From positions 45,720,401 to 45,784,400 of the forward strand of contig OY754465.1 of the NCBI GenBank assembly GCA_963575645.1: DNA of 64,000 nucleotides, in the 5' to 3' direction. The translations under genes and the position numbers were made by a program. Of the stretch, positions 11,110 through 57,890 are shown one piece after another. This DNA is from Xanthostigma xanthostigma. Its lineage: Eukaryota; Arthropoda; Insecta; Raphidioptera; Raphidiidae. The notes beneath the pieces were generated by a model, which was given only the letters and a program-made list of their open reading frames with translations, was not told where the DNA came from and ran no database searches. Every line of letters begins with the position of its first letter. Position 1 is the first letter of the stretch.

Positions 11110-12075
11110 TTTATTTTTTGACGTGATAACGTCTTATAAATTGATGAATCACGTCAAAATAAAAAGATGAAACACCGGCTGCATGCACGAAAAAGTGTAA
11201 CGTTCTTAACGTTCCTAACGTTACTAAGTGAGCGACTAGAATGCCTTCGGTAATTTTGAAGCAGATAACATCAACCGATTGAGATGAAAATTTGTATACA
11301 CGTTTAGTTTGAATGACAATGCATGGTTAGCTGTGTGACGTCACTCTAAATCCAATATGGCGGACTTCTAAAGATGGTGGAAATGCCTTCGGTAATTTTG
11401 AAGCATCGTCAACCGATTAAGATGAAAATTTGTATACACGTTTAGTTTGAATGACAATCCATGGTTAGCTGTGTGACGTCACTCTAAATCCAATACGGCG
11501 GACTTCTTAAGATGGCGGACTAATTTTATTATGCTTTCCTACAATATGGGTATCAAATGAAAGGGCTTGCTGAGAATAACTCGAAAAATAAAGTGACGTC
11601 ACTCTAAATCCAATATGGCGGACTTCTAAAGATGGCGGACTAATTTTATTATGCTTTCCTACAATATGGGTATCAAATGAAAGGGCTTGCTGAGAATAAC
11701 TCGAAAAATAAAGTGACGTCACTCTAAATCCAATATGGCGGGCATCTAAAGATGGCGGATTAATTTTATTATGCTTTCCTACAATATGGGTATCAAATGA
11801 AAGGGCTTGCTGAGAATAACTCGAAAAATAAAGTGACGTCACTCTAAATCCATTATGGCGGACTTCTAAAGATGGCGATCTAAATTTTTGACGTGATAAC
11901 GTCTTATAAATTGATGAAACACCAGCTGCACGCACGAAAAAGTGTAACGTTCCGTAACGTTCCGCCTGATCCTGTGCGTGCAAGCGAGAACGCAGTAATG
12001 TATTATTAAATATAATATTCGAGCGGAATACGTTATCACGTAAAACTATCGTCCGTAAACCGACTTTACAGACAA
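11110..12075. mobile_element. composite repeat element carrying tandem arrays
   Basis: Two near-identical blocks 'gacgtgataacgtcttataa', each followed by 'attgatga', lie at about 11118 and 11888 and bracket the tandem repeats. The right end (about 11998-12072) reads 'ttcgagcggaatacgttatc' and onward to 'ccgactttac'. It recurs inverted at 59514-59590 inside a SNAPC1 intron, so this is a dispersed transposable element. I cannot assign the superfamily. Confidence 0.55.
11239..11880 (+). repeat. tandem arrays: two ~145-bp units then three 120-bp units
   Basis: Units with the start 'atgccttcggtaattttgaa' occur at 11240 and 11385. Then 120-bp units with 'atgctttcctacaatatggg' occur at 11531, 11651 and 11771. 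Every unit ends in the same block, 'gtgacgtcactctaaatcca' followed by an 'atggcggacttctaaagatgg'-type tail. Because 120 is divisible by three, the minus strand stays open for 190 codons with a 40-residue repeat; I regard that frame as a by-product. Confidence 0.85.
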
Positions 12076-13744: not shown

Positions 13745-15262
13745 AACGCAAAGAATAAATTTGTTGCTGTTGTTTTGCCGCTTTGAGGCTTGAGCCGTAC
13801 TGGCTAATGTAAGCACGTTATCAATCCTAACACATCGTTAATTTTTTTCCTATGCACAGCAACAAAATAAATTTTTATATAATCTCAGAGCAACAAATTA
13901 GCAACAAAATCATACGCAAAGAATAAATTTGTCGCTGTTGTTTTGCCGCTTTGAGCCGTACTGGCTAATGTAAGAACGTTATCAATCCTAACACATCGTT
14001 AATTTGTTTCCTGTGCACAGCAACAAAATAAATTTTTATATAATCTCAGAGCAACAAATTAGCAACAAAATCATACGCAAAGAATAAATTTGTCGCTGTT
14101 GTTTTGCCGCTTTGAGCCGTACTGGCTAATGTAAGAACGTTATCAATCCTAACACATCGTAAATTTGTTTCCTGTGCACAGCAACAAAATAAATTTTTAT
14201 ATAATCTCAGAGCAACAAATTAGCAACAAAATCATGCGCAAAGAATAAATTTGTTGCTGTTGTTTTGCCGCTTTGAGCCGTACTGGCTAATGTAAGAACG
14301 TTATCAATCCTAACACATCGTTAATTTTTTTCCTATGCACAGCAACAAAATAAATCATATTAATTAATTAATTAATAATAATAATAATAATAATCATATT
14401 AATATTATAAATGCGAATGTAAGTTTGTTTGTTACGCTTTCACGCAAAAACTACTTAACCGATCATCATGAAACTTTGCACATACACTCTTGAAGGTATT
14501 AGAAGTAACATAGGATACTTTTTATTAAAAAAAAATAAAAATTTTTTACGAAAAATAAGAAAATTGTTTGTCAAAATATGTGCAATACCTCAACCCCTGA
14601 TATGCATGTCAAAAGTTGATTTCCATCTCAATCGCGGGCGTAGCCGCGGGTAGCGGCTAGTTTTTATATAATCTCAGAGCAACAAATTAGCAACAAAATC
14701 ATACGCAAAGAATAAATTTGTCGCTGTTGTTTTGCCGCTTTGAGCCGTACTGGCTAATGTAAGAACGTTATCAATCCTAACACATCGTTAATTTGTTTCC
14801 TGTGCACAGCAACAAAATAAATTTTTATATAATCTCAGAGCAACAAATTAGCAACAAAATCATGCGCAAAGAATAAATTTGTTGCTGTTGATTTGTCGCT
14901 TTGAGCCGTACTGGCTAATGTAAGCACGTTATCAATCCTAACACATCGTTAATTTTTTTCCTATGCACAGCAACAAAATAAATTTTTATATAATCTCAGA
15001 GCAACAAATTAGCAACAAAATCATACGCAAAGAATAAATTTGTCGCTGTTGTTTTGCCGCTTTGAGCCGTACTGGCTAATGTAAGAACGTTATCAATCCT
15101 AACACATCGTAAATTTGTTTCCTGTGCACAGCAACAAAATAATTTTTTATATAATCTCAGAGCAACAAATTAGCAACAAAATCATGGACAAAGAATGAAT
15201 TTGTTGCTGTTGATTTGTCGCTTTGAGCCGTACTGGCTAATGTAAGCACGTTATCAATCCTA
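13745..15262 (+). repeat. 161-bp satellite array, about 7.5 copies
   Basis: Successive units beginning 'aatctcagagcaacaaatta' sit at 13881, 14042 and 14203, exactly 161 bp apart, and continue after an insertion to 15262. Each unit also contains 'gccgtactggctaatgtaag' and 'cacatcgt'. Copies differ at few positions, so the array is young or homogenised. It is split once by the Helitron-like element at 14355-14660. No ORF runs through it. Confidence 0.9.
14355..14660 (+). mobile_element. Helitron-like element inserted in the satellite
   Basis: The 306-bp insertion starts TC (14355) and ends CTAG (14657-14660). It sits exactly between the A and T of 'aaataaa|tttttatata', the junction intact in the neighbouring 161-bp units, with no target duplication. 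A hairpin GCCGC-GGGTA-GCGGC lies at the 3' end. The head has 'gtttgtttgttacgctttca', a widespread arthropod interspersed repeat. It is non-autonomous, with no Rep/helicase. Confidence 0.8.
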
Positions 15263-16608
15263 AAACTAACTAACAAACAAACAATCTCTCAGGCTAAACG
15301 CATATACCTGCTCCGTTCTGTCGTGGGTAATAATAATAAGTATAAAGATCAGAAACTTTTGAAAGGCAACGGTGGTGTTTGTAAAACAGGTTTTATAGTT
15401 AAATGGCACGTGCGAAATGTGCAAAAGAACCGTATTATCGTGTACACAGAAGTAGCCATATATGAAATAGAGTGATCCCGGTGCGACCGTAAAAGGGTAA
15501 ACCAAATTAACAAAACATCAGATGTTCTTATTATGCAATTAGTGTTAACCAGACCGGTGGTCGTGTATAACCTACTCGTGTAAAGATTCGCTCCTCCGAA
15601 AATTTACAGTTGATCCGATTTAACGCTTCTGTTTACCTTTATGCCTAATGTGACCATTTATTTTTTTTCCTCAGAGCGGGACACCCTTAAATTGTTATTC
15701 TTTTAAAAATGAAACACATGTTTGTAATATAGTTATGAAATGTGAAATGATCACAAATGTAAATAAGAACCATTTATTTTTTTCCTCAGAGCGGGTGTGA
15801 GATAGTATCGAGAGTGATTTCATTTTTGTTAGATTTTACTAATATTTTTTAGTAATTTTATAGTTTTTTCATATCAGTATAATCATATATTACTAAATGT
15901 ATAATATCAAGTTTAAAAATGACATCAAAATCAAAAATTAATTTTATATCATATTGTTTTTTTATTTTTTGTTTTACTTTTGAAAAGTGCGCCATAAAAA
16001 AGCGGAAATTCTTCTTTCCTCCTTAACGTTTCTATTCTACTCTAATAATTACGCTTGCTTTAAAATGTACCTTGCGACAGTGGCGGTCCCCTAACTTACC
16101 GCTTTCGTACACAGAGATGATTCTCCATAACCTCTACCCTCCATAGTTTTTAAGCCTTCGTCTTCGGCTTCGGCTTCGACCGAAGGTTGTGGCGATATCC
16201 GATTAATCGACTTCGGCCGGAAATCGACCTTTGGTCGGACACTAGTTACAATACGCGATTGACTTAGATTAAATTGTAGATTATAGACGCTCAACATCTA
16301 ACGCGACTAACTTGACTATACTGTGCACAAGCCACGTGTACATGTTGTGTACGCATATGTATGTCTGCTCTGTAACAATTTCCACGTCTAATTATACCCT
16401 ACAATTAGTGTTATCGCCTGCCCTCCCTACCTTGGGAGTGTGGCGCCGGAGCGTTCATCCACGTAACGCACGCGATCCTATAGTATAGTATAGCGTATAT
16501 ATGCTTATTACTTTATTATTGACAGCTATGAGGGACGGCTTTCGTCCAAATGTTTTAGAGCCTGTTAATATTCAATTAGTAAATTTCCGTACGATATATT
16601 TCGTATTA
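15263..16608. other. intronic stretch, minor repeats
   Basis: The sequence 'ccatttattttttttcctca' with 'gagcggg' occurs twice, at about 15655 and 15769, as a direct repeat. Positions 16150-16240 are locally rich in 'cttcggc' repeats with short inverted matches. No gene seen. Confidence 0.35.
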
Positions 16609-18023: not shown

Positions 18024-18350
18024 ATGCGTTGGAACAGTGAGGAGCGTGCGTTTGCCATTGAGGCCTACTTTTCAAACGGATGTTCTGTGATTGCAACCCA
18101 GCGCGCCTTTCGGAGTCGTTTTAATTTAGCCCCGTTGACCCCCATCCCGGACCGGAAATCAATTGTTATGTGGGTCACTATGTTCAGATAAACTGCAAGT
18201 GCGACGAGATGAAGAGCTCGTCTCTGGTTCCATATTAGATCACCTGAGAACATTGAGACAGTGAGAGCTTCAATGTTGCGATCACCACGGCGTTCTGCGA
18301 GCAAACATGGGGTTTTTTGAAATCCCGTGTTTATGTGAACTGTTCAAGGA
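18024..18350 (+). pseudogene. mariner-like transposase N-terminal fragment (DUF4817-type helix-turn-helix)
   Basis: From ATG 18024 the frame reads MRWNSEERAFAIEAYF, then 'TQRAFRSRF' and 'PIPDRKSIVMWV'. That is the N-terminal DNA-binding domain common in insect mariner-like proteins. A stop follows at about 18189. After frame changes the linker reads 'SPENIETVRASMLRSPRRSA', again typical of the family. The DDE catalytic domain is missing because the LINE end begins at about 18390. Confidence 0.75.
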
Positions 18351-18990: not shown

Positions 18991-19177
18991 GTCATGACAA
19001 ACACTAGAAATCGGTTTACTCAGTGTATGTATCACATACCTGATTTGATCTTTAAAAACAAGATAAGTAAAACAAAACTTTAGGTGTGTGCCTACATTAT
19101 AAAAAACAAATAAAAATTTTCTGATTCATCCAATGGGTTTTATTAAGTTTTGAAAAAAGGAAGTTATGCTGCCGCAT

Positions 19178-19458
19178 TCTGTATATCGATAAATTTTGAC
19201 AGAATAGGCTGTGTAATGATGGGAAATTTATATCACCGATAAAAAGCTAGGGATTAGACAGATATAAAACTACATAACTAATGAAACATATTTTTGTACG
19301 ACCCTCCATAAAAGAGCAGTTTTTCATGCCTGTATGTCAGTAGTAAAATAACCCATTTCGCACTAGTGCATAAAGCAAAACAAAAGAAGTGTTTTACGAA
19401 TCAAAGAGTAATTTCTCAGTCAGTTACCATTTAATACTATATAAGCCGGTACATGACG
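19178..19458. other. spacer before the foldback element
   Basis: AT-rich, nothing recognised. Confidence 0.35.
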
Positions 19459-21015
19459 TTTTGGTACGGCCGTTTTGGTCCCGCCGTTTTGGTCCCGCCG
19501 TTTTGGTCCCGCCGTTTTGGTCCCGGCCGTTTTGGTCCCGGCCGTTTTGGTCCCGACCGTTTTGGTCCCGGCCGTTTTGGTACCGGCCGTTTTGGTCCCT
19601 GTTATTAGATTATGACAAATAAAATTACCGACCGATTTGTCAGACAATATATTGACAAAAATTAAATAATATAATTATAACAATTAACGTTCGATCCGGA
19701 TTTGGATCTTCTTCGGAATTGAGCTAAAAAATAAAAAATATAAAAAATAAATTAGTAATTATTTTATATAATAAAATGCTGTGTATTTTTTCAATATGAA
19801 AATAATAATGATAAAATAATAGCTAATTACTAATTAATTTTTTATTTGAACGATTTTTGTTAAATAAAGTAACGTCACTCTAAATCCAATATGGCGGACT
19901 TCTAAAGATGCAAAAAATTTATAGGCCAATTATTTAAATATTTTTTGTTGTTCTCAGTGGAAGCGGTTTTTCGAAAAACAAAAAATAAATAAATAAAAAC
20001 AATTTAAAAAAAAATTTAACATTTTTTTCACCGGAACTTTATTCTTTCAAGTGTTAAGATGACACCATAATTTATTCAAATTGTTATTTTAAATTATTAT
20101 TTAATACTATAAAAAAATTATTTTATGTGTTGTACTCTATCAACAGGGCTGTGTGCTCGGGATGTAGGGGCAGCGCGGAACCCTATTTTGAACGTTAAAT
20201 TAAAACTATAAAAAATACGGATGAGTCCCGAAAGATGAGTCTTTCTTATAAGAAATTTTCTCCAGTGGAGTCTTCGGCTCCACAGTATTGCAATCTTGTC
20301 TCACTGTTAAGCAGTTTGGGCTGTACGCATATATCTCTTCTACGCATGCGCCGATTTTCTCCAAAAAATTTTTTCACAAAACTCTTGTATAATAAAATAA
20401 TGACCCGTTATGAAAATTATGTCATTATTATATAAAAAAAACACCGTTGTAGCATATATATCTTCTGCACATGCGCCGATTTATCTAAAATTTAAGAAGT
20501 TACCTGGAAACAAATCGAACAAAAAAGGTTTTTCAAAATCGGTTAAGCCGTTTGGGCTGCACGCATATATCTCTTCTACAGCGTGACGCGAAACACCGTG
20601 ACGATCTGACACGAATCACCGTGACGCGAATCCATCAGTTTACTCCCTACCAAAAATCGATCAAATAAAAAATTAATAAGTAATTATTAGTTATTATTTT
20701 TTATTAATATTTTCATACTGATAAAATACACAGTATACATTTATTATATAAAGTAAATACGAATTTATTTTTTATAATTTTTTTTAGCTCAATTCCGAAG
20801 AAGATCCAAATCCGGATCGAAACGTTAGGTAATTGTTTGAATTATATGATTTATTTTTTGTCAATATATTGTCTGAAAAATTTTTCGGTAATTTTATTTG
20901 TCATAACCTAATAACAGGGACCAAAACGGCCGGTACCAAAACGGCCGGGACCAAAACGGTCGGGACCAAAACGGCCAGGACCAAAACGGCGGGACCAAAA
21001 CGGCCGTACCAAAAA
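19459..21015. mobile_element. foldback element with minisatellite arms
   Basis: The left arm begins with 8-9 tandem copies of a 15-16-bp unit (about CCGTTTTGGTCCCGG, 19459-19600) and continues through 'gacaaataaaattaccgacc' to at least 19860. The right arm (about 20655-21015) is the inverted copy ending with the same minisatellite as 'gggaccaaaacggcc' units. The roughly 0.8-kb centre contains a copy of the 'gtcactctaaatccaatatg' block of the 11.2-11.9 kb tandem repeats. Open frames in the arms are repeat by-products. No transposase is seen. Confidence 0.85.
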
Positions 21016-21121
21016 GTCCTGCTTCGATATAAGCAACATCAAGCAAAGTAGGCGTGGTCTTCGTAAACAATCCGAATAGATTTTAATATGGCCGAACACT
21101 CAGCTGTCAGATTTAAGTGTA

Positions 21122-21545
21122 CTAGCGGGCCGGTCCGGTTTCACTCGAATTTGTAGATTGTCACCGTCGACTTACGTTGCAAAATTGATATCCACGAAAA
21201 GCTCTTAACATTAAAACGGGTATAGTAAGCTATTAAAAAATAGACTTAATATGCCATCGCGGACTTCTCTGTAGACCTATAAAAGAGGAACAATTCCACT
21301 GTTATATCTCACAGGAATTAGGCAGCGTTTTCGATGAAAGCTCTTAATCGGCTTGATTTTTTTCGATATCTTCAACAATCATCGTCACATTTCAACCAAT
21401 TTATATAAAACATTAATTATACACATAAGCCTTTCTCTTGAATCACTCGATTCAGTTGTAAAAACCGTATGAAAATCCGTTCGGTAGTTTTTGAGTTTAT
21501 CGCGTTCCGACAGGCAGATGGACTTTGTTTTATAATATATAGTGA
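21122..21545 (-). mobile_element. Helitron-like element, minus orientation
   Basis: Read on the minus strand, it starts TCACTATATATTATAAAAC after an A (21545-21546) and ends CTAG at 21125-21122 followed by T. Just before the end lies 'gaaaccggaccggcccgctag', similar in style to the other Helitron-like tails in this window. It is 424 bp with no ORF. Confidence 0.65.
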
Positions 21546-29224: not shown

Positions 29225-29353
<129 letters not shown>

Positions 29354-29518: not shown

Positions 29519-30060
29519 TCTATAAATAAAATTATCGACAAGTTTTTCAGACAATTATATTTTTGTTAATATAATTGGGCTTTTGAATGAAATTTTTTTT
29601 TGTCATAAATGGAAAGATCGTGTATAAGTTTTATAACAAAACTATTTTTATTTTTTTTATTTTCGTTATAATTCAAAAGTTATATCACAATAAAAATAAA
29701 TTTTTGTACCCAGTTCCGAGAACGCGCCGACATTTCCCGAACATAATGTGACGTCATAATGTTTTAGTCAATACACATGTAGAAGCCATTGATAGTATAC
29801 TGCGTATATACATTTTACCATTATGATGTCACAACTGTCAAAAACAATTTTAGTGCGTTTGCAGTCACGTGATTTTTTTAAATATTTTATCAATTTTAAA
29901 TTGCTTATAATTAATTTAAAAAAAGTTTTTTGAAAGTTTTTCGCATCGATTATTAATATTATTTATAATAAAGTTTTAAAATACAATAAAAAAATCGATA
30001 ATTATTTTTTTTTCAAAAGCCTAATTGTCTGAAAAATTGGTCGTTAATTTTATTTATTGT
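29519..30060. mobile_element. 542-bp element with terminal inverted repeats
   Basis: The left end 'tataaataaaattatcgaca' with 'tttttcagacaatt' is mirrored at the right end, 'aattgtctgaaaaattggtc' to 'gttaattttatttat'. The same core (AATAAAATTAnCGAC...TCAGACAAT) sits inside both arms of the foldback element at 19459-21015, so they are relatives. Non-coding. Confidence 0.7.
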
Positions 30061-30590
30061 TGAAAACAAAATTTAACACAACATAAACTGAAGTTCTAAT
30101 GCGGTACTGTATCGAATGATATTGATTGGCTAATCCTGATGATTGGCTAATTCAAATAAGTACCGATTTCTTTACTCCATTTAGATATACCTAATAAATC
30201 TCTTAACTGTGTTACTTCAAGCAGTTACACAGTGACGTTACATGTTCCGCGGTAACATAGAGTGACATTTAGTGGGTTTGGGGTTTCGCCGACGAAATGC
30301 GAAGTAGAAGAGAACAACAAACAATACAAAATATAGTATACACAAATATGGCAATTAAATGTCAAAGGTAAGGAAAGTTACTTTTTGAAGTTATACTTCT
30401 TTTGGCGCGTTAATGAATTATGAGAGTGAGTTTTTACGAATTAACAGAATGAAGTTACCGACAATGACCGAAAATTAACAGACTGAAGTTGCTCAAAATA
30501 TTCAATAAAATGTCCAAGGCACATAGTTTCACGCCTTTGATATTTTATTGTTTTTTTTATTTTGTCTAGTTCATATATTTATTCCTAGTA
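30061..30590. other. spacer, no gene seen
   Basis: Nothing recognised beyond AT-rich intron. Confidence 0.35.
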
Positions 30591-31464
30591 CTGAAATAAA
30601 ACATTACCTGATATCTGTCATATTCATTATTTTATATTTTCGCTGCGCCATAAATCCAATGTTATAGCCTAGTTCACATGTCCTTTTTTGTTGAATTCCA
30701 GTCCTCCTTTACCGCAAATTATGATCATAGTGTCATTCGATTCGGAATGACATCAAAAACTTTTTTAAAAATATGTAGTGGGGGACGAGAAAATTGCAAA
30801 AGTTATAAATATTTCAGTAAAAAAAGAGGGTTATTTTGCGATTATCTTGAAAACATTTGCAGATATTTGAAATCGCTAAAAAGATTCTGAAAGAGCAAGA
30901 AATTTCCTACAAAAAAGTCCCATCTCCCGGAACTCTACCACCAATATTTTTAGTTTTAATTTAGAGTTGAAAATAGGGCTAACATATTTTTTTTCTATTT
31001 ATTATATAATTTTCAATATTTTCCTATCTTTTAATTTTTCGTATAAATAATAGAAAAAAAAAACAATTTTTAGCCATATTTTCATCTCTAAACTAAAATT
31101 GGAAATATTGGTGGTAGAGTTCCGGGAGGTGAGACTTTTTTGTAGGAAATTTCTCGCTCTTTCAGAATCTTTTTTGTGATTTCAAATGCCTACGATAGTT
31201 TTTGAGATATTTGCAAAAAAACATACTCCTCTTTTTTTTACTAAAATATTTATAACGCTTGCAATTTTTTTGTCCGAAAAGTTTCTAGATGTCATTCCGT
31301 ATTGAATGACACCAGAATCATAATTTCCGGTGAAGGAGGACTGAAATTCATCAAAAAAGGACATGTGAACTAGGTTACAAGCACATTTACCAAACATTGG
31401 ATTCATGGCGCAGCGAAAATGTAAAATAGTGAATATGACAGATATCAGGTAATGTTTTATTTCA
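30591..31464. repeat. 874-bp palindrome with ~420-bp arms
   Basis: The left arm runs 30591-31017 ('ctgaaataaaacattacctg' ...) and the right arm 31044-31464 ends '...caggtaatgttttatttca'. Internal landmarks such as 'ttttcgctgcgcca', 'acatgtcctttttt' and 'ccggaactctaccaccaata' occur in both in mirror order. The short open frames at 30678-30890 (+) and 31182-31406 (-) are the same sequence read from each arm. Non-autonomous foldback element; superfamily unknown. Confidence 0.85.
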
Positions 31465-31470
31465 ATTGAA

Positions 31471-32485
31471 AAATTATCGATATTAATGATTACAAATCAG
31501 TCAAAAACAATGTATCAATAGGCGTTCCTCAGGGTAGTAATCTAGGCCCTTTATTATTTATATGTTTTATAAATGACATGCCTGATTATATAACAGAAGG
31601 TAAAGTAATTGTGTATGCAGATGTTATTACCGTGTTGATAGCGGCACCAAATACGATTGAAATGGAAAATAAAAGAAAAAAAAGTAGTCGATCAATTTGC
31701 TGAATATTGTCGTAAAAATCAACTTATTGTAAATTTGAATAAAACATCTTCAGTTCAGTTCAGAATCAGGAGTCCCGTACAAAAAGGAGTTGCAATAAAA
31801 GCTCAAATAGATTTCAACTTGTCCGCAAAATTTTTAGGTGTCATTATAGATGAAAACATGAAATAGATTTTACAGGTGAATAACGTGTGCAAGAAGCTTA
31901 ACTTTCATTATTATCAGCTAAGGCAGCTAAAGAATGTATATGACCGAAAAATCTTACTTATTTACTATGATGCTTTTATTGCAAGTACCATAAAGTACGC
32001 TATAATTATCTGGGGAACAGAGTTTTTAAGATTCAAAAGAAAGCACTAAGATTAATAATCGACTTAAAATATGCTGAATCTTGTCGCCCGACATTCAAAA
32101 ATAACAAGATACTAATGTATTACGGGATTTTTAGTTGTGAACTGCTAACTGTAATGTATAGACTGTACTAAAACACTTCAGTGCCAGATACAACAATGTT
32201 AAATGCTACAATACTCGGCCCAATAGCAACATTGCCATGAAGCATAAAACGTCATTTTATATAAAATGTATATACATAGGATATAAAATATATGCAAGGT
32301 TACCTGAAGTGGTTAAAAGCGCAAATAATGAATCTCAATTTCAAATAAATATAAAGCATTATTTTTTACAATCTGTGCCTTATGCTATGTGATTTGATGT
32401 CACCATAATGATTGTGTTTTTTATTGACGTTTTGTATCTATTTTATAATTGCTCCGCAAATAAATGTGTATCTATCTATCTATAG
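31471..32485 (+). pseudogene. LINE reverse transcriptase remnant (TATC-tailed family)
   Basis: Broken frames encode RT motifs. 'VSIGVPQGSNLGPLLFICFI' (about 31530) precedes a degenerate catalytic 'YADVI' in place of YADDT, then 'KFLGVIIDENMK' and 'YAIIIWG'. Stops and frameshifts abound and the catalytic aspartate is lost. The 3' end has AATAAA and a (TATC)n tail at 32470-32485. The same family reappears inverted at 53484-53930. It starts immediately after the 30.6-31.46 kb palindrome. Confidence 0.75.
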
Positions 32486-40592: not shown

Positions 40593-41072
40593 TAGATATA
40601 AGGTTGGGTGACACTGTCAGATTTCTTGGCCTTATTATAGATAAAAATCTGGACTTGAAATCCCATATAGATTCTATACTACCTAAATTGAATAAAGCGC
40701 TGTATATATTACGAATTTTAAAAAAATATGTCAACGACCAAAATATGTTAACAAATATATATTATGCATATTTCCATTCAATCGTGCAATATGGTATCAT
40801 TTTTTTGGGGCAGTTCTACTCATACCATTAAGATTTTTGAGCTGCAAAAAAAGTGTATCAGAATCATGGCAAATGTGACACCTCGCGCTAGCTGTCGTCA
40901 ATTATTTACTAAACTGTCTATTCTTACTGTCTATGATCTATACATCTATGAATGCAGCAAATTTATGAAAGATCATCCATATTTATTCAATAGGAACCAT
41001 AGAAATCATAATTATATCACTCGTGACAAAAATAATTTGAAAACCGATTTCTCGGCGCTGACAGTCACATAT
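40593..41072 (+). pseudogene. older LINE ORF2 C terminus, 5' part (split)
   Basis: Two overlapping frames encode 'LGDTVRFLGLIIDKNLDLKS', then 'IYYAYFHSIVQYGIIF' and, after a frameshift, 'FELQKKCIRIMANVTPRASC'. This is the thumb and C-terminal region after the RT catalytic core of CR1/L2/Jockey-like LINEs. It stops abruptly at the 5' end of a second LINE and continues at 42361. The RT core itself is absent. Confidence 0.8.
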
Positions 41073-42360
41073 TAAGACAATTTTTGACGTTACAAATGAA
41101 TTATATAAATCTTGGGACAAAAAAGAGCCTATGGTTGCTCTCCTACTTGACCTGTCAAAAGCCTTTGACTGTGTCAGTCATTTAAAACTAACTGAAAAAT
41201 TACAGCATTATGGGATAAGAGGAGTTACCTTAGATCTCTTTAAATCGTACTTAAAGGATCGAGTACAACAGGTTCAAATAAAGTGTAAAAATAAATATGG
41301 TCAAGTTGACAACTATAATTCAGAATGGAAAAATGTCAGTAGGGGAGTACCACAGGGTTCTATTTTGGGCCCGATTCTTTTTATATTATTTGTGAATGAC
41401 TTTCCTGATTCTATCACAGATAAGTGTTTTCAATTTGCTGATGATACTTGTATTATTGCCAAGATGAATAGTTTCTGTGATATCTCTAATAAATTAAATG
41501 ATGTCTTGTCAATAGTGTCAAAATGGTTTAATGACAATGAATTAGTAATGAACATAGATAAAACTCAAGTATTCCGTGTAGGCAATTATGACAACTTTGG
41601 TAATAATATCATACTAAATAATAACACTACTATACCCATAAAACATACTGTTAAATTCTTAGGAATCTTGCTTGATAATAAATTGTCATATAAAAATCAT
41701 ATTAACTATGTGCTAGGTAAACTAGCTAAATCTTACTTCATTGTATGTAATTTGAAACATATTGTATGTCGTGAAACACTTTTAATAGCCTATCATGCTT
41801 ACGTGGAAAGTCACTTATCGTACGGTGTAATATTTTGGGGAAATTCCACTGACTTTTTAGATATTTTTATAAGACAAAAAAAAATAATTCGAGCTATAGT
41901 TGGAGTTCACCCTAGTCATTCATGTAGACTTCTTTTTAAACAACTAAAAATTTTAACTGTATATAGTATTTATATTTTAAGCTGTATATTGTTTTATAAG
42001 AAGAATGTAAATCTTTTCAGTAGAAGAATAACTGTACATAACCATAACACACGATTTAAAGAAGACATTAATTATAAAACTAGTAACTTAAACATCACAC
42101 TTAATAGTCCTTACAATACAATAGCTAAAATTTGTAACAAATTACCGGTAAATATCTTAAATTTAAAAGCACCCAAATTAACAAATACTATAAAAAACAT
42201 TCTTCTTGATAAAACAATATACAGCTTAAATGAATACTATAACATAAATTTTAAGAATATTTTATAATATATTTTATGTACCACCTACTATCTTCTGACG
42301 CATTCTATGCTCTCTCTGTTGCAAAAGTGAATAAAGAATTATTATTATTATTATTATTAT
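41073..42360 (+). mobile_element. nested 5'-truncated LINE with a long open reverse transcriptase frame
   Basis: The open frame runs from about 41073 ('KTIFDVTNELYKSWDKKEPM') to the stop at 42265-42267. It carries RT motifs LLLDLSKAFDCVSH, RGVPQGSILGPILF and the catalytic FADDT, then KFLGILLDNKL, YGVIFWGNS and a zinc-free C terminus. No stop or frameshift occurs in about 400 codons, so it is young. The endonuclease and first RT motifs are missing (5' truncation). The 3' end is AATAAAGAATT(ATT)n at 42330-42360. It is inserted in an older LINE. Family: CR1/L2/Jockey-like, not resolved further. Confidence 0.85.
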
Positions 42361-44771: not shown

Positions 44772-44788
44772 CGCCCCCGGGTGGGCTC

Positions 44789-44825
<37 letters not shown>

Positions 44826-44845
44826 GCCAATTGCGCCACGGAGGC
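44772..44845 (-). tRNA. tRNA-Asn (anticodon GTT)
   Basis: The 74-nt gene folds as a complete cloverleaf on the minus strand: acceptor GCCTCCG/CGGGGGC (one G-U pair) with G discriminator, D arm GCGC...GCGC, anticodon arm TTCGG-CTGTTAA-CCGAA, T arm GGTGG-TTCGAGC-CCACC. The A box TGGCGCAATTGG and B box GGTTCGAGCC fit the consensus. A TTTTT run follows within 15 bases of its 3' end as a pol III terminator. It lies antisense in an intron of the chaoptin-like gene. No intron. It should be functional. Confidence 0.97.
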
Positions 44846-46506
44846 TCACACCTGTTTGTGTATTATTAGCGTATTTGCCATATGGCACATATTAGCGTCT
44901 GTCAAATGGTGAAACCCGAGTCGGACCAAAATTTCTTGACGTTTTATGGTCCTTTGAACAATTTGGCCCCATTTTTGAAAATGTTAATATATTTATATAT
45001 ATTAGTGTAAGTATATGTGTTTATGTATACAGGTAATAACTTTCGAAAGAGTTAATCGACTTTGACGAAATTCGATCAACGTACGAGAATTCGTCGCCGC
45101 ACGAGACCTATTTAAAATGGATCTAATCAGGTCATTCTAAGGGTGGCTTTTAGGGGTTGAAAAAAGTTTTCGGGCCCAAAAATATCGACAAAATTTTTAG
45201 AATTGTTTCAGAATTTAAATTTAACCCTTTAGTAAAAATTAAAATGTGCTGCTAAAATTTTAATTAACTCGCCCCGACAGGACCGGACTTACAAAATTTA
45301 TGAAAACACTAGTTTGTGGATACGAATTTACTTACTGAAGAGTGCATTTAATTTGGTGCAGATGTTTGAATTGATAATAATAATCATTAATTCAGCTACG
45401 AAAATATTATTATTTTAAGAGGTGTATTAAGGGGTTATATTTTTCATTTTCTCCAAAAACAAACTAAGGTTACGTAATAAAGCCATAATACCTGTATAAG
45501 CAAATGAAGTAATCAACAGTTTTAACATGGAGGACAATTAGATTTTAATTTTATTCGAATCCTACTTCATACTATGCTTTGTCCGCGTCGTTTAAATCTA
45601 GACGTTTAACTTTTCTTCCAGTCACCCTATAAAATCGGTGCTTTATACGCCTGCATAGCGGCAGTAAAATGACCCATTTTGCACAAGTGCGTAAAATAAA
45701 ACAAAAAAAAATATTTAAAACCATATAAGCAACAGAGATATATACTTACAAAATGTACCTATCTAAAAAGCTAATTTATATCGAAATAAAGATTATGGTC
45801 GTATCCATGTTGTTGCCACTCCAACCTATATTGATCATACTTTGCGAAGAATATTTCAAAAATACTATCTGCCTAAAATTGCAAATACACATGTTAATAA
45901 TTAAACAAAAAAGAGTTCAAGTAAAATTTACGTATTTTTTGTAGTAAAATCCGAATCTTCAATAAAAATTAGGGGTTTCCATTTATAATTGCAAAGTTGC
46001 CCACCGCTTCATCCGCTGGGTGGAGGGGTCATGTGTGGTCTCATTAAATAGCTCTCAAAAAATATTTTTTACGTGTTTTCATGTTTTTTTATTCAATGCA
46101 TCGTCTGCGAGATTTTTCGGGGTTCCGGGACTTTTCTAGCACCCTGTATGTTCATTTCTTAAAAGAAAATTTATTTTAACAGTATAGGATAGTTATAGTT
46201 TGCTACAATTGCTATGAAACACCCAGTGCTACAATGCTATATTAAAAAAAATGTGTCCAAACACTGTCACCATTTGGTCTTTCCACTCTCATCTAACGGT
46301 GGAATGAGTTATCAATTACTCAATAGTGACATATCCAAATAGTCTAAGTCAATTTTTCTTATATGTAAATCATATTTGTAACTGTTTTTTCACATCATGC
46401 GAGAGCTAATTTTAATCCTATAAGTAAATCTAAATATGAACCTTCACAATAATGTGAGTTATGGTTAAATCAAAGATGAAAAAAATAATAAAGTATTTTT
46501 TTTCAG
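44846..46506. other. rest of intron B-C
   Basis: No gene seen. 'ccagtcaccctata' at about 45619 matches the terminus of the 27.4-27.9 kb inverted repeat. The plus frame at 45753-45944 has no domain. Confidence 0.4.
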
Positions 46507-48988
46507 AAATGAAATTCATTCAATCGCAGGCGATTGGTCGCATCTGCAAGCCACCTTGTCATCTCTACTACTCGGCGACAACGATATTACGTCACTGTCT
46601 CACAAAACAGCTGATTATCGTGACGAGACAAGTCTGCACGATTTTGAATCACTGACGACAATCAATTTGGACGGCAATAAAATATCCCGTCTCGACAGAC
46701 ATTCGCTACCGAGAACCATTCAAACGTTGCGACTAGCTCACAACTTACTCCGACATTTTCCGACCGACTTGATTGAACACCTCCACCACTTACAGTGGCT
46801 TTTCATGCGCGGAAATGAGATAGAACATCTGCCGCAACATACATTCCGTCGCGTTCTTACAATTGAGAAGTTTGATCTTGGAGAGAATGGCTTGAAGTCA
46901 ATACCAAAACATTTGTTTAATCACAGTTTCCATGTCAGAGATTTAAGTCTCGATTTTAATAAACTGGAAACTTTACATCCTGAAACATTTGCAGGTTTAA
47001 ACGTAGCCCGTATTCTGTTAAACTACAATCAAATAAATACATTACATTTGAAAACATTTCTGGGCGTTGAGAATACTTTGGAGTATTTAGATCTTGAAAG
47101 CAACAAACTCTTTCAAATTCCGAAAGCTTTGCATAGACTTAAGGCACTTAAATATTTGTACATATCATCTAATATGATATCTGAAATTAAAGACGACACT
47201 TTTTTGTCTTTTTGTAAAAATCTGCGAGTTTTAAGTTTAAGCGGGAATTTGTTAACAAATATTCCTAAAGCTTTATCGAATTGCTTCAGATTATCACATT
47301 TAAATTTGGGTTATAACCAAATATCTGAAATTAAAGAAGATGATTTTTCAACTTGGGCGTCAAATTTGGACACACTTTTACTTAGAAGTAATAAAATTGC
47401 AAGTTTAGACGAAAATGTTTTCAACACAACAACGCGTCTAAGAGAACTGAGTCTGAGTTTTAATCCTCTTAATTATTTACATCCAAATGTGTTTCAACAA
47501 CTGTCGAACACGCTTGAAAGTCTAGAAATGTCATTTGCGCTGTCACAAGAAAAGTTCCCGTTGGATACTCTTCAGCCTCTAAACAAATTATTGTGGCTTA
47601 CACTAGACAACAACAATATTGATTCTTTTCAACTTCAAACGTTGCACTCATTTCCAAATTTACAGTATTTAAATTTAGAATCGAATAAAATAAAAAGTTT
47701 GGATAAAATCCAGTCATATATTCGAAGCAATTTAACTCACCTTCGACTGTCCTACAATAAATTAGAAACAATTGAACCGAAAACGTTTACGTCACTAGAA
47801 ATGTTGCAGAGTATATCATTGTCCGGCAACGAACTTAAAGTAATTAAAACAAACGGATTTCACAATTTGTCAAAATTGGTCAAAATCATTATGTCTAATA
47901 ATAAAATTCAACAAATACAATCGGGCGCATTTTCCAATTTACCAATGTTGACAAAATTGGATCTGCATCATAATCAATTATTTACGTTTTCAATGAATTC
48001 GTTGAAAAACAGTACAAATTTTGAATACTCTTTGTCACTGAATCTCAGTTCGAATAATTTGATTGACGTAACACCGGGCGAAGATATAATAAATATTAGA
48101 AAAGTCGATTTAAAGCATAATAATTTACGATCGCCGCCGAAAAAGTTCTTGGAAAAAATATCGCATTCGATCAGAAACCTACATTTGGATTACAATAATA
48201 TAGCTTCATTGGAACTTGAAGCTTTTGGACAGCTGATAAATTTGGAGGAATTGACTTTGAAACATAATAAAATAATGTCAATGGCTAAACATTCTTTCCT
48301 CGGATTGGACAGCTTACAGATTTTAGATTTATCGCAAAATAATATTGATAAAGTTCATATTGGACAATTTTCTTATTTGCAACAACTGCGAATATTGGAT
48401 TTAAGTTTTAACAGCTTAACATATTTGTCAAAGGAAAGTTTACGCAACACAAAAATAGAACGGTTAGATTTGAGCAACAATGGATTCGTTGTTCTACCAA
48501 GTATAGTTTTGAGTGACGTTGGATCAACACTACGATTGTTAAAATTGAACAAAAATAATATTGAACATATTGATAGTACAATATTTCCATCAACACCGTT
48601 TTTATTAAATTTAGATTTAAGTTGTAACAAGCTGAATATATTGCCAGACAACGTTTTTGCCAATCTCGATAATTTGCAAATGTTAGATTTAAGCTGTAAT
48701 CCACTAAGAGCCAATTTTAAGGAACTGTTTCACTACGTCCAATCACTGAAACATTTGCATTTGGCTGATATTGGCTTAAAATCTATGCCAGCTTTGCCTC
48801 TTCCAAATCTCGTGTATTTAAATCTTTCTTCGAATTTTATAACGGAAGTGAACAGATATTCGATAAAAGGATTGACAAAACTAAGACATCTTTATCTCAG
48901 AAATAACAACTTATCTGTCATTCCAACAAATATTTGGGGCTATTTACCTACGCTGAAAACTTTGGATATTGGAAAAAACCCAGTTAAG
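46507..48988 (+). CDS. chaoptin-like LRR gene, large exon C
   Basis: This 2,482-bp exon encodes 827 uninterrupted codons, roughly thirty tandem LRRs. The acceptor is 'ttttttttcag' and the donor AAG|GTAAGA at 48988; the phase ends at 0. Typical repeats are 'LTTINLDGNKISRLDRHSL', 'LEYLDLESNKLFQIPKAL' and 'LRELSLSFNPLNYLHPNVF'. The asparagine ladder (N in LxxLxLxxN) is well kept and many N-x-S/T sites fit an extracellular protein. The same sequence read backwards gives only shadow frames (48373-48714). No frameshift or stop is present. It forms the core of the ectodomain. Confidence 0.97.
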
Positions 48989-49150
48989 GTAAGATCTCAA
49001 CGTGTCTTATTTGCTTAGTTTTCCATTTGCATGCATTCTATTTTCTAGTTTATTCTTATAATTCTTTTTAAATATTGACATTTTTGAACACTTTTTACTT
49101 CTTAGTCCAACTCTTCTCTAAATAATTTCCATTATTTCGCCATATTTTAG
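48989..49150. other. start of intron C-D
   Basis: Donor GTAAGA. Nothing else seen before the mariner-like element. Confidence 0.5.
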
Positions 49151-57029: not shown

Positions 57030-57890
57030 CTATATACAGACTGAGTCAGACCACCCGTACCGGTCGTTTTTTTAGAAAACGGTTAGTCGTATAGAGTTGT
57101 GTCAAAAATCTGTATAATAAAAGCACAAATGAAGAATCGAATGCTGATATTTTTTTTCCAGAAAGGTCGGCTTCCCTATTAGTTTGCTCCGGAATGTTCA
57201 GAACTCCGGAATTTTAAATTGCACGACAGGTCGAAAGTGGTATTGTTGAAGAGATCTTTAAAAAATAAGCACGTTTTGTAGGACATTTTTTTTGTTACTG
57301 CCACCCCTGTTAAGTAATATTCGTTTGAAATTATTAAATTAACATGTCATAATAACGAATTAATTTTAAAAGTCGGCATTTAAAATCTAGTTACCTACCT
57401 AATGACCTCTTCTAGATATGCTGTGAGTACTTACAAGTATTTACCGACAAAAAAAAAAAAAAAAAAAAAAACAATTGCAGTTATTGAAAACTTATTGTAA
57501 TATTGTATTAGGTAACTAGATTTTAAATGCCAACTTTTAAAATTAAGCTCGTTATTAAGACATTTCAATTTAATAATTTCAAACAAATATTACTTAACAG
57601 GAGTGGCAGTAATAAAAAAAAATGTCCTACAAACTTGCTTATTTTTTAAAGATCTTTTCAACAATACCACTTTCGACCTATCCTGCCATTTAAAATTCCG
57701 GAGTTCCGAACATTCCGAAGCAAACTAATAGGGAAGCCGACCTTTCCGGGGGAAAAAAATATCACCATTCGATTCTTCATTAGGGCTTTTATAATACGGA
57801 TTTCTGACATAACTCTCTACGACTAACTTTTTTCGAAAAAAAAAAAAAAAAAACGACCGGTATGGGTGGTCTGACTCACCTGTATATAGG
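57030..57890. repeat. 861-bp inverted repeat with ~375-bp arms
   Basis: The left arm 57030-57405 ('ctatatacagactgagtcag' to 'aaatctagttacctacctaa') is mirrored by 57507-57890 ('taggtaactagattttaaat' to 'ctgactcacctgtatatagg'). The spacer carries an A-run of about 21 at 57450-57470, and another A-run lies in the right arm at 57837-57853. It is intergenic between the chaoptin-like gene and SNAPC1. Non-coding foldback element. Confidence 0.85.

Follow-up and report, generated by a model that had tools for sequence, protein, structure and literature searches.

An element of 1,580 bp occupies positions 19447-21026 of the window, which is the whole 64-kb stretch of DNA that was analysed. Its inverted arms measure 416 bp on the left and 379 bp on the right, and each is made up of a tip, a GC-rich array and an AT-rich inner arm. 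The features, by window position, are:

19439-19446, forward strand: left copy of the putative target-site duplication (TSD), 8 bp, ATATAAGC, identical to 21027-21034
19447-19458, forward strand: left terminal motif, CGGTACATGACG, differing from the right tip at 5 of 12 positions
19459-19599, forward strand: left array, 10 units of 14-15 bp (TTTTGGT, spacer, CCG), the last running into the inner arm
19600-19862, forward strand: left inner arm, AT-rich, 263 bp, inverted against 20648-20916
19618-19648, forward strand: 31-bp inner-arm motif, left copy, found also as an inverted pair at 29525-29555 and 30024-30054
19863-20647, forward strand: core, with pieces of other dispersed repeats (19862-19910 and 20181-20258) and no recognised transposase in the frames scanned with Pfam
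20648-20916, reverse strand: right inner arm, inverted against 19600-19862
20868-20898, reverse strand: 31-bp inner-arm motif, right copy, with 2 mismatches, from the motif search
20917-21014, reverse strand: right array, 7 units, from TRF and splitting at TTTTGGT
21015-21026, reverse strand: right terminal motif, read inward as CGAAGCAGGACT, from comparison with the left tip
21027-21034, forward strand: right copy of the putative TSD, 8 bp, ATATAAGC, identical to 19439-19446

Long inverted arms with tandem repeats place the element in the structural class of foldback-type TIR elements, and this one copy has both defined ends and a putative target-site duplication. "Foldback element", the term used in the initial annotation, is thus right as a structural description: long inverted arms beginning with an array, defined ends and a TSD. 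The coordinates given there, 19459..21015, need extending by 12 bp on the left and 11 bp on the right, to 19447 and 21026, at the 8-bp repeat. An intronic setting, also proposed there, is not supported, and the nearby DNA has repeats and a frame with a DUF4817 domain (18024-18191). This short frame, 1.3 kb to the left of the element, carries the DUF4817 helix-turn-helix domain (Pfam E 3.7e-11) and is possibly a decayed transposase of another family.

Inverted arms

The two arms align between 19501-19862 and 20648-21014 with 88.7% identity over 373 columns (E 1e-133). The inner arm alone scores 362, against a maximum of 58 in 300 Markov-random pairs. The further inverted repeat inside the arrays, initially put at ~300 bp, is present, with the left inner arm measuring 263 bp. 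Base composition changes along the arms: GC content is 62% and 60% in the two arrays and 19% in the left inner arm, compared with 36% and 35% in the 5-kb flanks.

Allowing up to 3 mismatches, the 31-bp inner-arm motif AATAAAATTACCGACCNATTTNTCAGACAAT has four matches in the window, where 0 are expected and none appeared in 100 shuffles. Apart from the two in the element, the motif forms the inverted pair 29525-29555 / 30024-30054 around a core of ~470 bp. The array unit is absent from this pair, as judged by a search of the 64-kb window at up to 3 mismatches. The pair at 29.5-30.05 kb is possibly a sister element.

Minisatellite arrays

In the left arm TRF reports a 15-bp unit repeated 9.8 times with 93% match (19457-19599), and in the right arm one of the same length, oppositely oriented and repeated 6.7 times with 88% match (20917-21014), which bears out the description of oppositely oriented arrays at both ends. 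Splitting the arrays at TTTTGGT gives 10 units on the left and 7 on the right. The tandem unit is confirmed in both arms, at 14-15 bp and not the 15-16 bp first given. A search for the unit TTTTGGTCCCGGCCG at up to 3 mismatches gives 13 matches in the 64-kb window, all 13 of them within the element; 0.41 would be expected by chance, and the highest count in 100 shuffles was 3. All differences among the 15 complete units (the innermost unit of each arm being left out) fall between TTTTGGT and CCG, in the spacer of 4-5 bp.

Read from the tip inward, the unit variants run F-E-E-E-D-D-C-D-A-x on the left and F-E-d-C-D-A-x on the right, d being D with one changed base. With d counted as D, the right-hand units form a subsequence of the left-hand series, a fit achieved by 2 of the 360 orders of the right units. 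The surplus of the left array, two E units and one D unit, amounts to 43 bp and is the whole difference in array length; therefore the arms share one ancestral array, so that units would later have been gained in, or lost from, one arm. The variable unit number anticipated for a mobile family is thus seen between the two arms of a single copy, as 10 versus 7.

Arm-to-arm differences number 1 in 98 aligned bases of the array, a low value that may partly reflect which units were chosen for alignment across the 43-bp gap, and 22 in 258 in the inner arm (Fisher P 0.007). Constraint on the unit, conversion between the arrays, or the free choice of units across that gap could each contribute to the similarity of the arrays.

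Element ends

The perfect 8-bp direct repeat ATATAAGC abuts both ends of the element in the same register (19439-19446 and 21027-21034), and the pair reads as a target-site duplication. From base composition, the probability that 8 bases match by chance is 2.4e-5 for a single register and 3.6e-4 for 15 symmetric registers together; an 8-mer is repeated at the spacing of 1,588 at 7 of 62,399 window positions, the ATATAAGC pair among them. The repeat was spotted by eye before testing, and these chance figures serve as a guide. The only other 8-mer common to both end regions searched, ACGGCCGT, belongs to the array repeat unit. We take the duplication to be 8 bp long because the bases flanking the pair mismatch on either side; a 9-bp duplication needs one mutated base.

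The tips themselves are unequal, with 7 of 12 bases agreeing in a gapless alignment. GAC is common to both, and its end lies 11 bp inside each copy of the 8-bp repeat. Alternative ends at CATGAC and CAGGAC, which would give a P-like CA tip, were rejected: the 8 bases adjoining them are not repeated, whereas ATATAAGC is.

The ends also bear on a non-mobile origin, by inverted duplication of a local minisatellite together with its neighbourhood. Such a process yields no direct repeat abutting both ends, and here an 8-bp pair stands in exact register. Nor is the part of the arm that holds the inner-arm motif unique, since the motif turns up again in the inverted pair at 29.5-30.05 kb. In favour of a non-mobile origin, one full copy is known, and the palindromes at 30531-31525 and 57030-57889 of the window have no TSD evident by eye. 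We regard this origin as very improbable and treat the element as a transposon.

Core and coding capacity

Stop-to-stop frames of at least 25 aa overlapping this putative transposon number 38, and the longest, of 84 aa, crosses the left array. Of these 38, 10 core frames were scanned with Pfam, and none matched a transposase. One core frame matched a methyltransferase model at E 0.017 and 15.2 bits, against a cut-off of 27, which looks like a chance match.

The core contains a degenerate internal repeat (about 20306-20357, 20448-20482 and 20542-20579). The stretch 19862-19910 shares 98% identity with part of a 120-bp tandem unit at 11.5-11.9 kb, and 20181-20258 resembles part of the palindrome at 30.9 kb, with 76% identity; therefore at least part of the core consists of other dispersed repeats. 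Only the inner-arm motif and these short core pieces recur elsewhere in the window.

Near position 20218, the sequence CGGATGAGTCCCGAAAG resembles the core motif of a hammerhead ribozyme. This candidate was rejected, there being no Rfam match at gathering score in the element. Across 19000-21500 at E values up to 5, Rfam returned three matches, none of them a ribozyme; their E values run from 0.13 to 3.2, and they reach 43-64% of the respective gathering scores. The one Rfam match in the window at gathering score is a tRNA at 44772-44845.

Surrounding repeats and reading frames

The window has other repetitive structures. At 30531-31525 lies a long near-palindrome with arms of about 470-480 bp and a spacer of about 35-50 bp; both arms begin ACGCCT, and its part 30900-30978 resembles 20181-20258 of the element core. 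Another foldback structure occupies 57030-57889, with arms of about 370-380 bp that are 88% identical and both begin CTATATACAG. Tandem repeats of 138 and 120 bp lie at 11240-11877, and a 49-bp part of the 120-bp unit has a 98% identical counterpart in the element core, immediately inward of the left arm. An array of a 161-bp unit (9.5 copies) spans 13746-15263, and a perfect AT dinucleotide run of 62.5 copies spans 29228-29352. Also in the window are a reverse transcriptase frame (41062-42267) and a long frame for an LRR protein (46469-49018), and these two frames suggest animal DNA. The host may be an insect, probably a moth or butterfly, a tentative reading that draws in part on repeat motifs.

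Searches for relatives in other data

Exact patterns built from the array and inner arm had no match in viral contigs or in genome contigs; the gaps in one viral-contig pattern probably needed at least 5 bases, so that it would miss 4-base spacers. Equally, blastn of the whole element against phages and plasmids gave no match. The collections covered are described as holding viruses, bacteria, archaea and plasmids, which makes the absence of matches of little weight. Searching the full-text literature with 13-letter pieces of the unit returned no repeat context, a result with no bearing on repeat databases such as Repbase. The matches that did appear, to a cat-cell probe in a paper on a sequencing tool (PMC13172811) and to a peony primer (PMC12564517), are in the reported contexts chance matches.

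Superfamily assignment

The element is probably an old, non-autonomous foldback-type cut-and-paste DNA transposon, most likely a MULE of the animal Phantom/Muta/Tm1 kind. Both MULE membership and mobility are drawn from the structure of one copy, which makes it a candidate and not a proven member of the superfamily. Its 8-bp duplication lies within the 8-11 bp of MULE duplications, and its 14-15-bp units, in arms of 416 and 379 bp, lie within the 9-15 bp of the subterminal tandem repeats of long MULE TIRs, which are common, not universal, in the Phantom/Muta/Tm1 kind. The element tips equal no published MULE tip that we compared. The rarity of MULEs in a survey of 100 animal genomes (median 0), which reports no Pack-MULE in reference genomes (PMC8277862), counts against a MULE. 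A 2026 arthropod survey lists MULEs in 222 species (88 Lepidoptera; complete elements in 75, according to its table) (PMC13359780).

That the element is a foldback from another superfamily (P/Galileo-like, hAT or KDZ) whose tandem arms arose by convergence is possible but unlikely. Target-site duplications of 8 bp occur in hAT and KDZ and count for such an origin; the length found here fits these superfamilies as well as MULEs. The CAGNG tip is of hAT type, and it is absent from both ends of the element. Long TIRs are also a feature of Galileo (P superfamily), some of whose subfamilies carry tandem repeats in them, and its describers call multiple binding sites a convergent trait (PMC3573991). 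As reported there, repeat number differs between Galileo arms and the repeats hold secondary transposase sites (PMC3573991). Galileo duplications are, however, described as mostly 7 bp, and the tandem repeats of the F-subfamily TIRs as about 210 bp (PMC3573991), against 8 bp and 14-15 bp here. The 7-bp duplication of Galileo and P elements was not found: the repeat extends over 8 bp, with mismatched bases beside it.

Membership of the Drosophila FB / Rehavkus branch proper is a good deal less probable than that, and the MULE assignment above remains our preference. The arm units of FB4 differ from the unit of this element. The duplication is 8 bp, as opposed to 9 bp in Rehavkus and 9-10 bp in FB4, and a length of 9 bp would require one mutated base in the flanks. 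What speaks for this branch is that FB4 of D. melanogaster, with its long inverted arms and TSDs of 9-10 bp, is considered more likely to be a MULE (PMC8277862), and that Rehavkus is described with a minisatellite and TIRs of 26-400 bp (PMC6446971). The Rehavkus minisatellite, though, is described before the 3' TIR (PMC6446971), whereas both arms carry an array here. Its transposase is reported to have a PHD finger.

Proposed mechanism and significance

For a MULE-like element of this kind, we infer all the steps that go beyond the anatomy. A transposase coded elsewhere would have bound the arms. The GC-rich row of repeats probably served as docking sites for this enzyme, which once moved the element; the repeated TTTTGGT...CCG units would be multiple binding sites, and the 4-5-bp spacer a tolerant filler. 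The transposase would then have cut at the tips, and insertion would have followed an 8-bp staggered cut of the target. Slippage or unequal exchange within one arm may have added or removed units. Fragments of other repeats may have come to occupy the core, as happens in other non-autonomous MULEs.

A more speculative idea, doubtful in our estimate, is that the element represents an undescribed foldback lineage. Its GC-rich arrays would be tunable landing pads for the transposase, kept alike by selection or conversion while the AT-rich arm drifts, and the pair at 29.5-30.05 kb would represent a sister family whose array was lost or never acquired.

Links to chromosomal inversions in flies have been reported for Galileo and similar foldback-like elements, and the tandem arrays of foldback elements are thought to collect transposase sites (PMC3573991). 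This element offers a small, concrete case for that idea, in which an unvarying unit core can be distinguished from a tolerant spacer and unit gains or losses are visible between the two arms of one copy. Otherwise, this is routine repeat annotation for the host genome.

Comparison with known foldback elements and MULEs

Drosophila FB is not the closest comparison, because FB4 has a TSD of 9-10 bp against 8 here and the Muta and Tm1 MULEs match in more points. FB4 likewise has long inverted repetitive arms, described with 9-10-bp TSDs and a TIR of about 700 bp (PMC8277862).

The Muta elements, which have been placed in Phantom by a source that gives the TSDs of MULEs as 8-11 bp (PMC6446971), come closer. 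All 14 MULE families described from Aedes aegypti have 8-9-bp TSDs (PMC5225508). Twelve have TIRs longer than 100 bp, and 10 of these 12 carry subterminal tandem repeats of 9-15 bp (PMC5225508). Muta5 is described with 9 copies of a 15-bp repeat and an 8-bp terminal motif, and Muta1 is termed a type 2 foldback element by its authors (PMC5225508). The non-autonomous derivatives of Muta1 are reported for the most part to keep the TIR, with unit number and interiors variable (PMC5225508). As described, Muta1 and Muta5 thus resemble our element in having an 8-9-bp TSD and a TIR made of a short terminal motif followed by 9 copies of a 12- or 15-bp repeat. Their arms, reported at 145-151 bp, are shorter than those found here, in which the array is succeeded by ~263 bp of AT-rich inner arm; the likeness described is one of anatomy. 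The Muta1 tip is described as an imperfect palindrome; no comparable palindrome is evident by eye in our element.

Tm1 of the root-knot nematodes Meloidogyne, a Mutator/Foldback family with a Phantom-like transposase (PMC3169594), is similarly built. It is described with unequal 7-bp tips, then GGA, then units of 13-15 bp whose number is unequal at the two ends (PMC3169594). Its motif B is GGA (PMC3169594); our element has GGA on the right and TGA on the left. The mean TIR identity of Tm1 is given as 93%, its TSD is commonly 9 bp, and its unit is CGATTCAGTATCCGC (PMC3169594), as against TTTTGGTCCCGGCCG here. Set against the published Tm1 motifs, the left tip agrees with A1 in 5 of 7 letters and the right with A2 in 3 of 7, matches that may be due to chance. 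Of the GA-rich motif D described in Tm1, none was seen by eye in the element.

Tetris, a foldback element of D. virilis, is described as non-autonomous, with 8-9-bp TSDs in three complete copies (PMC4079207). It too has tandem repeats in its TIRs, the unit being TIR-220 (its name implies about 220 bp), and this unit occurs in satellite-like arrays as well (PMC4079207). It was assigned to Mutator on TSD length and previous opinion on foldback elements, with no transposase to go by (PMC4079207); the evidence used here is of the same kind. Elements of this build are already known, and the one described here is ordinary in kind.
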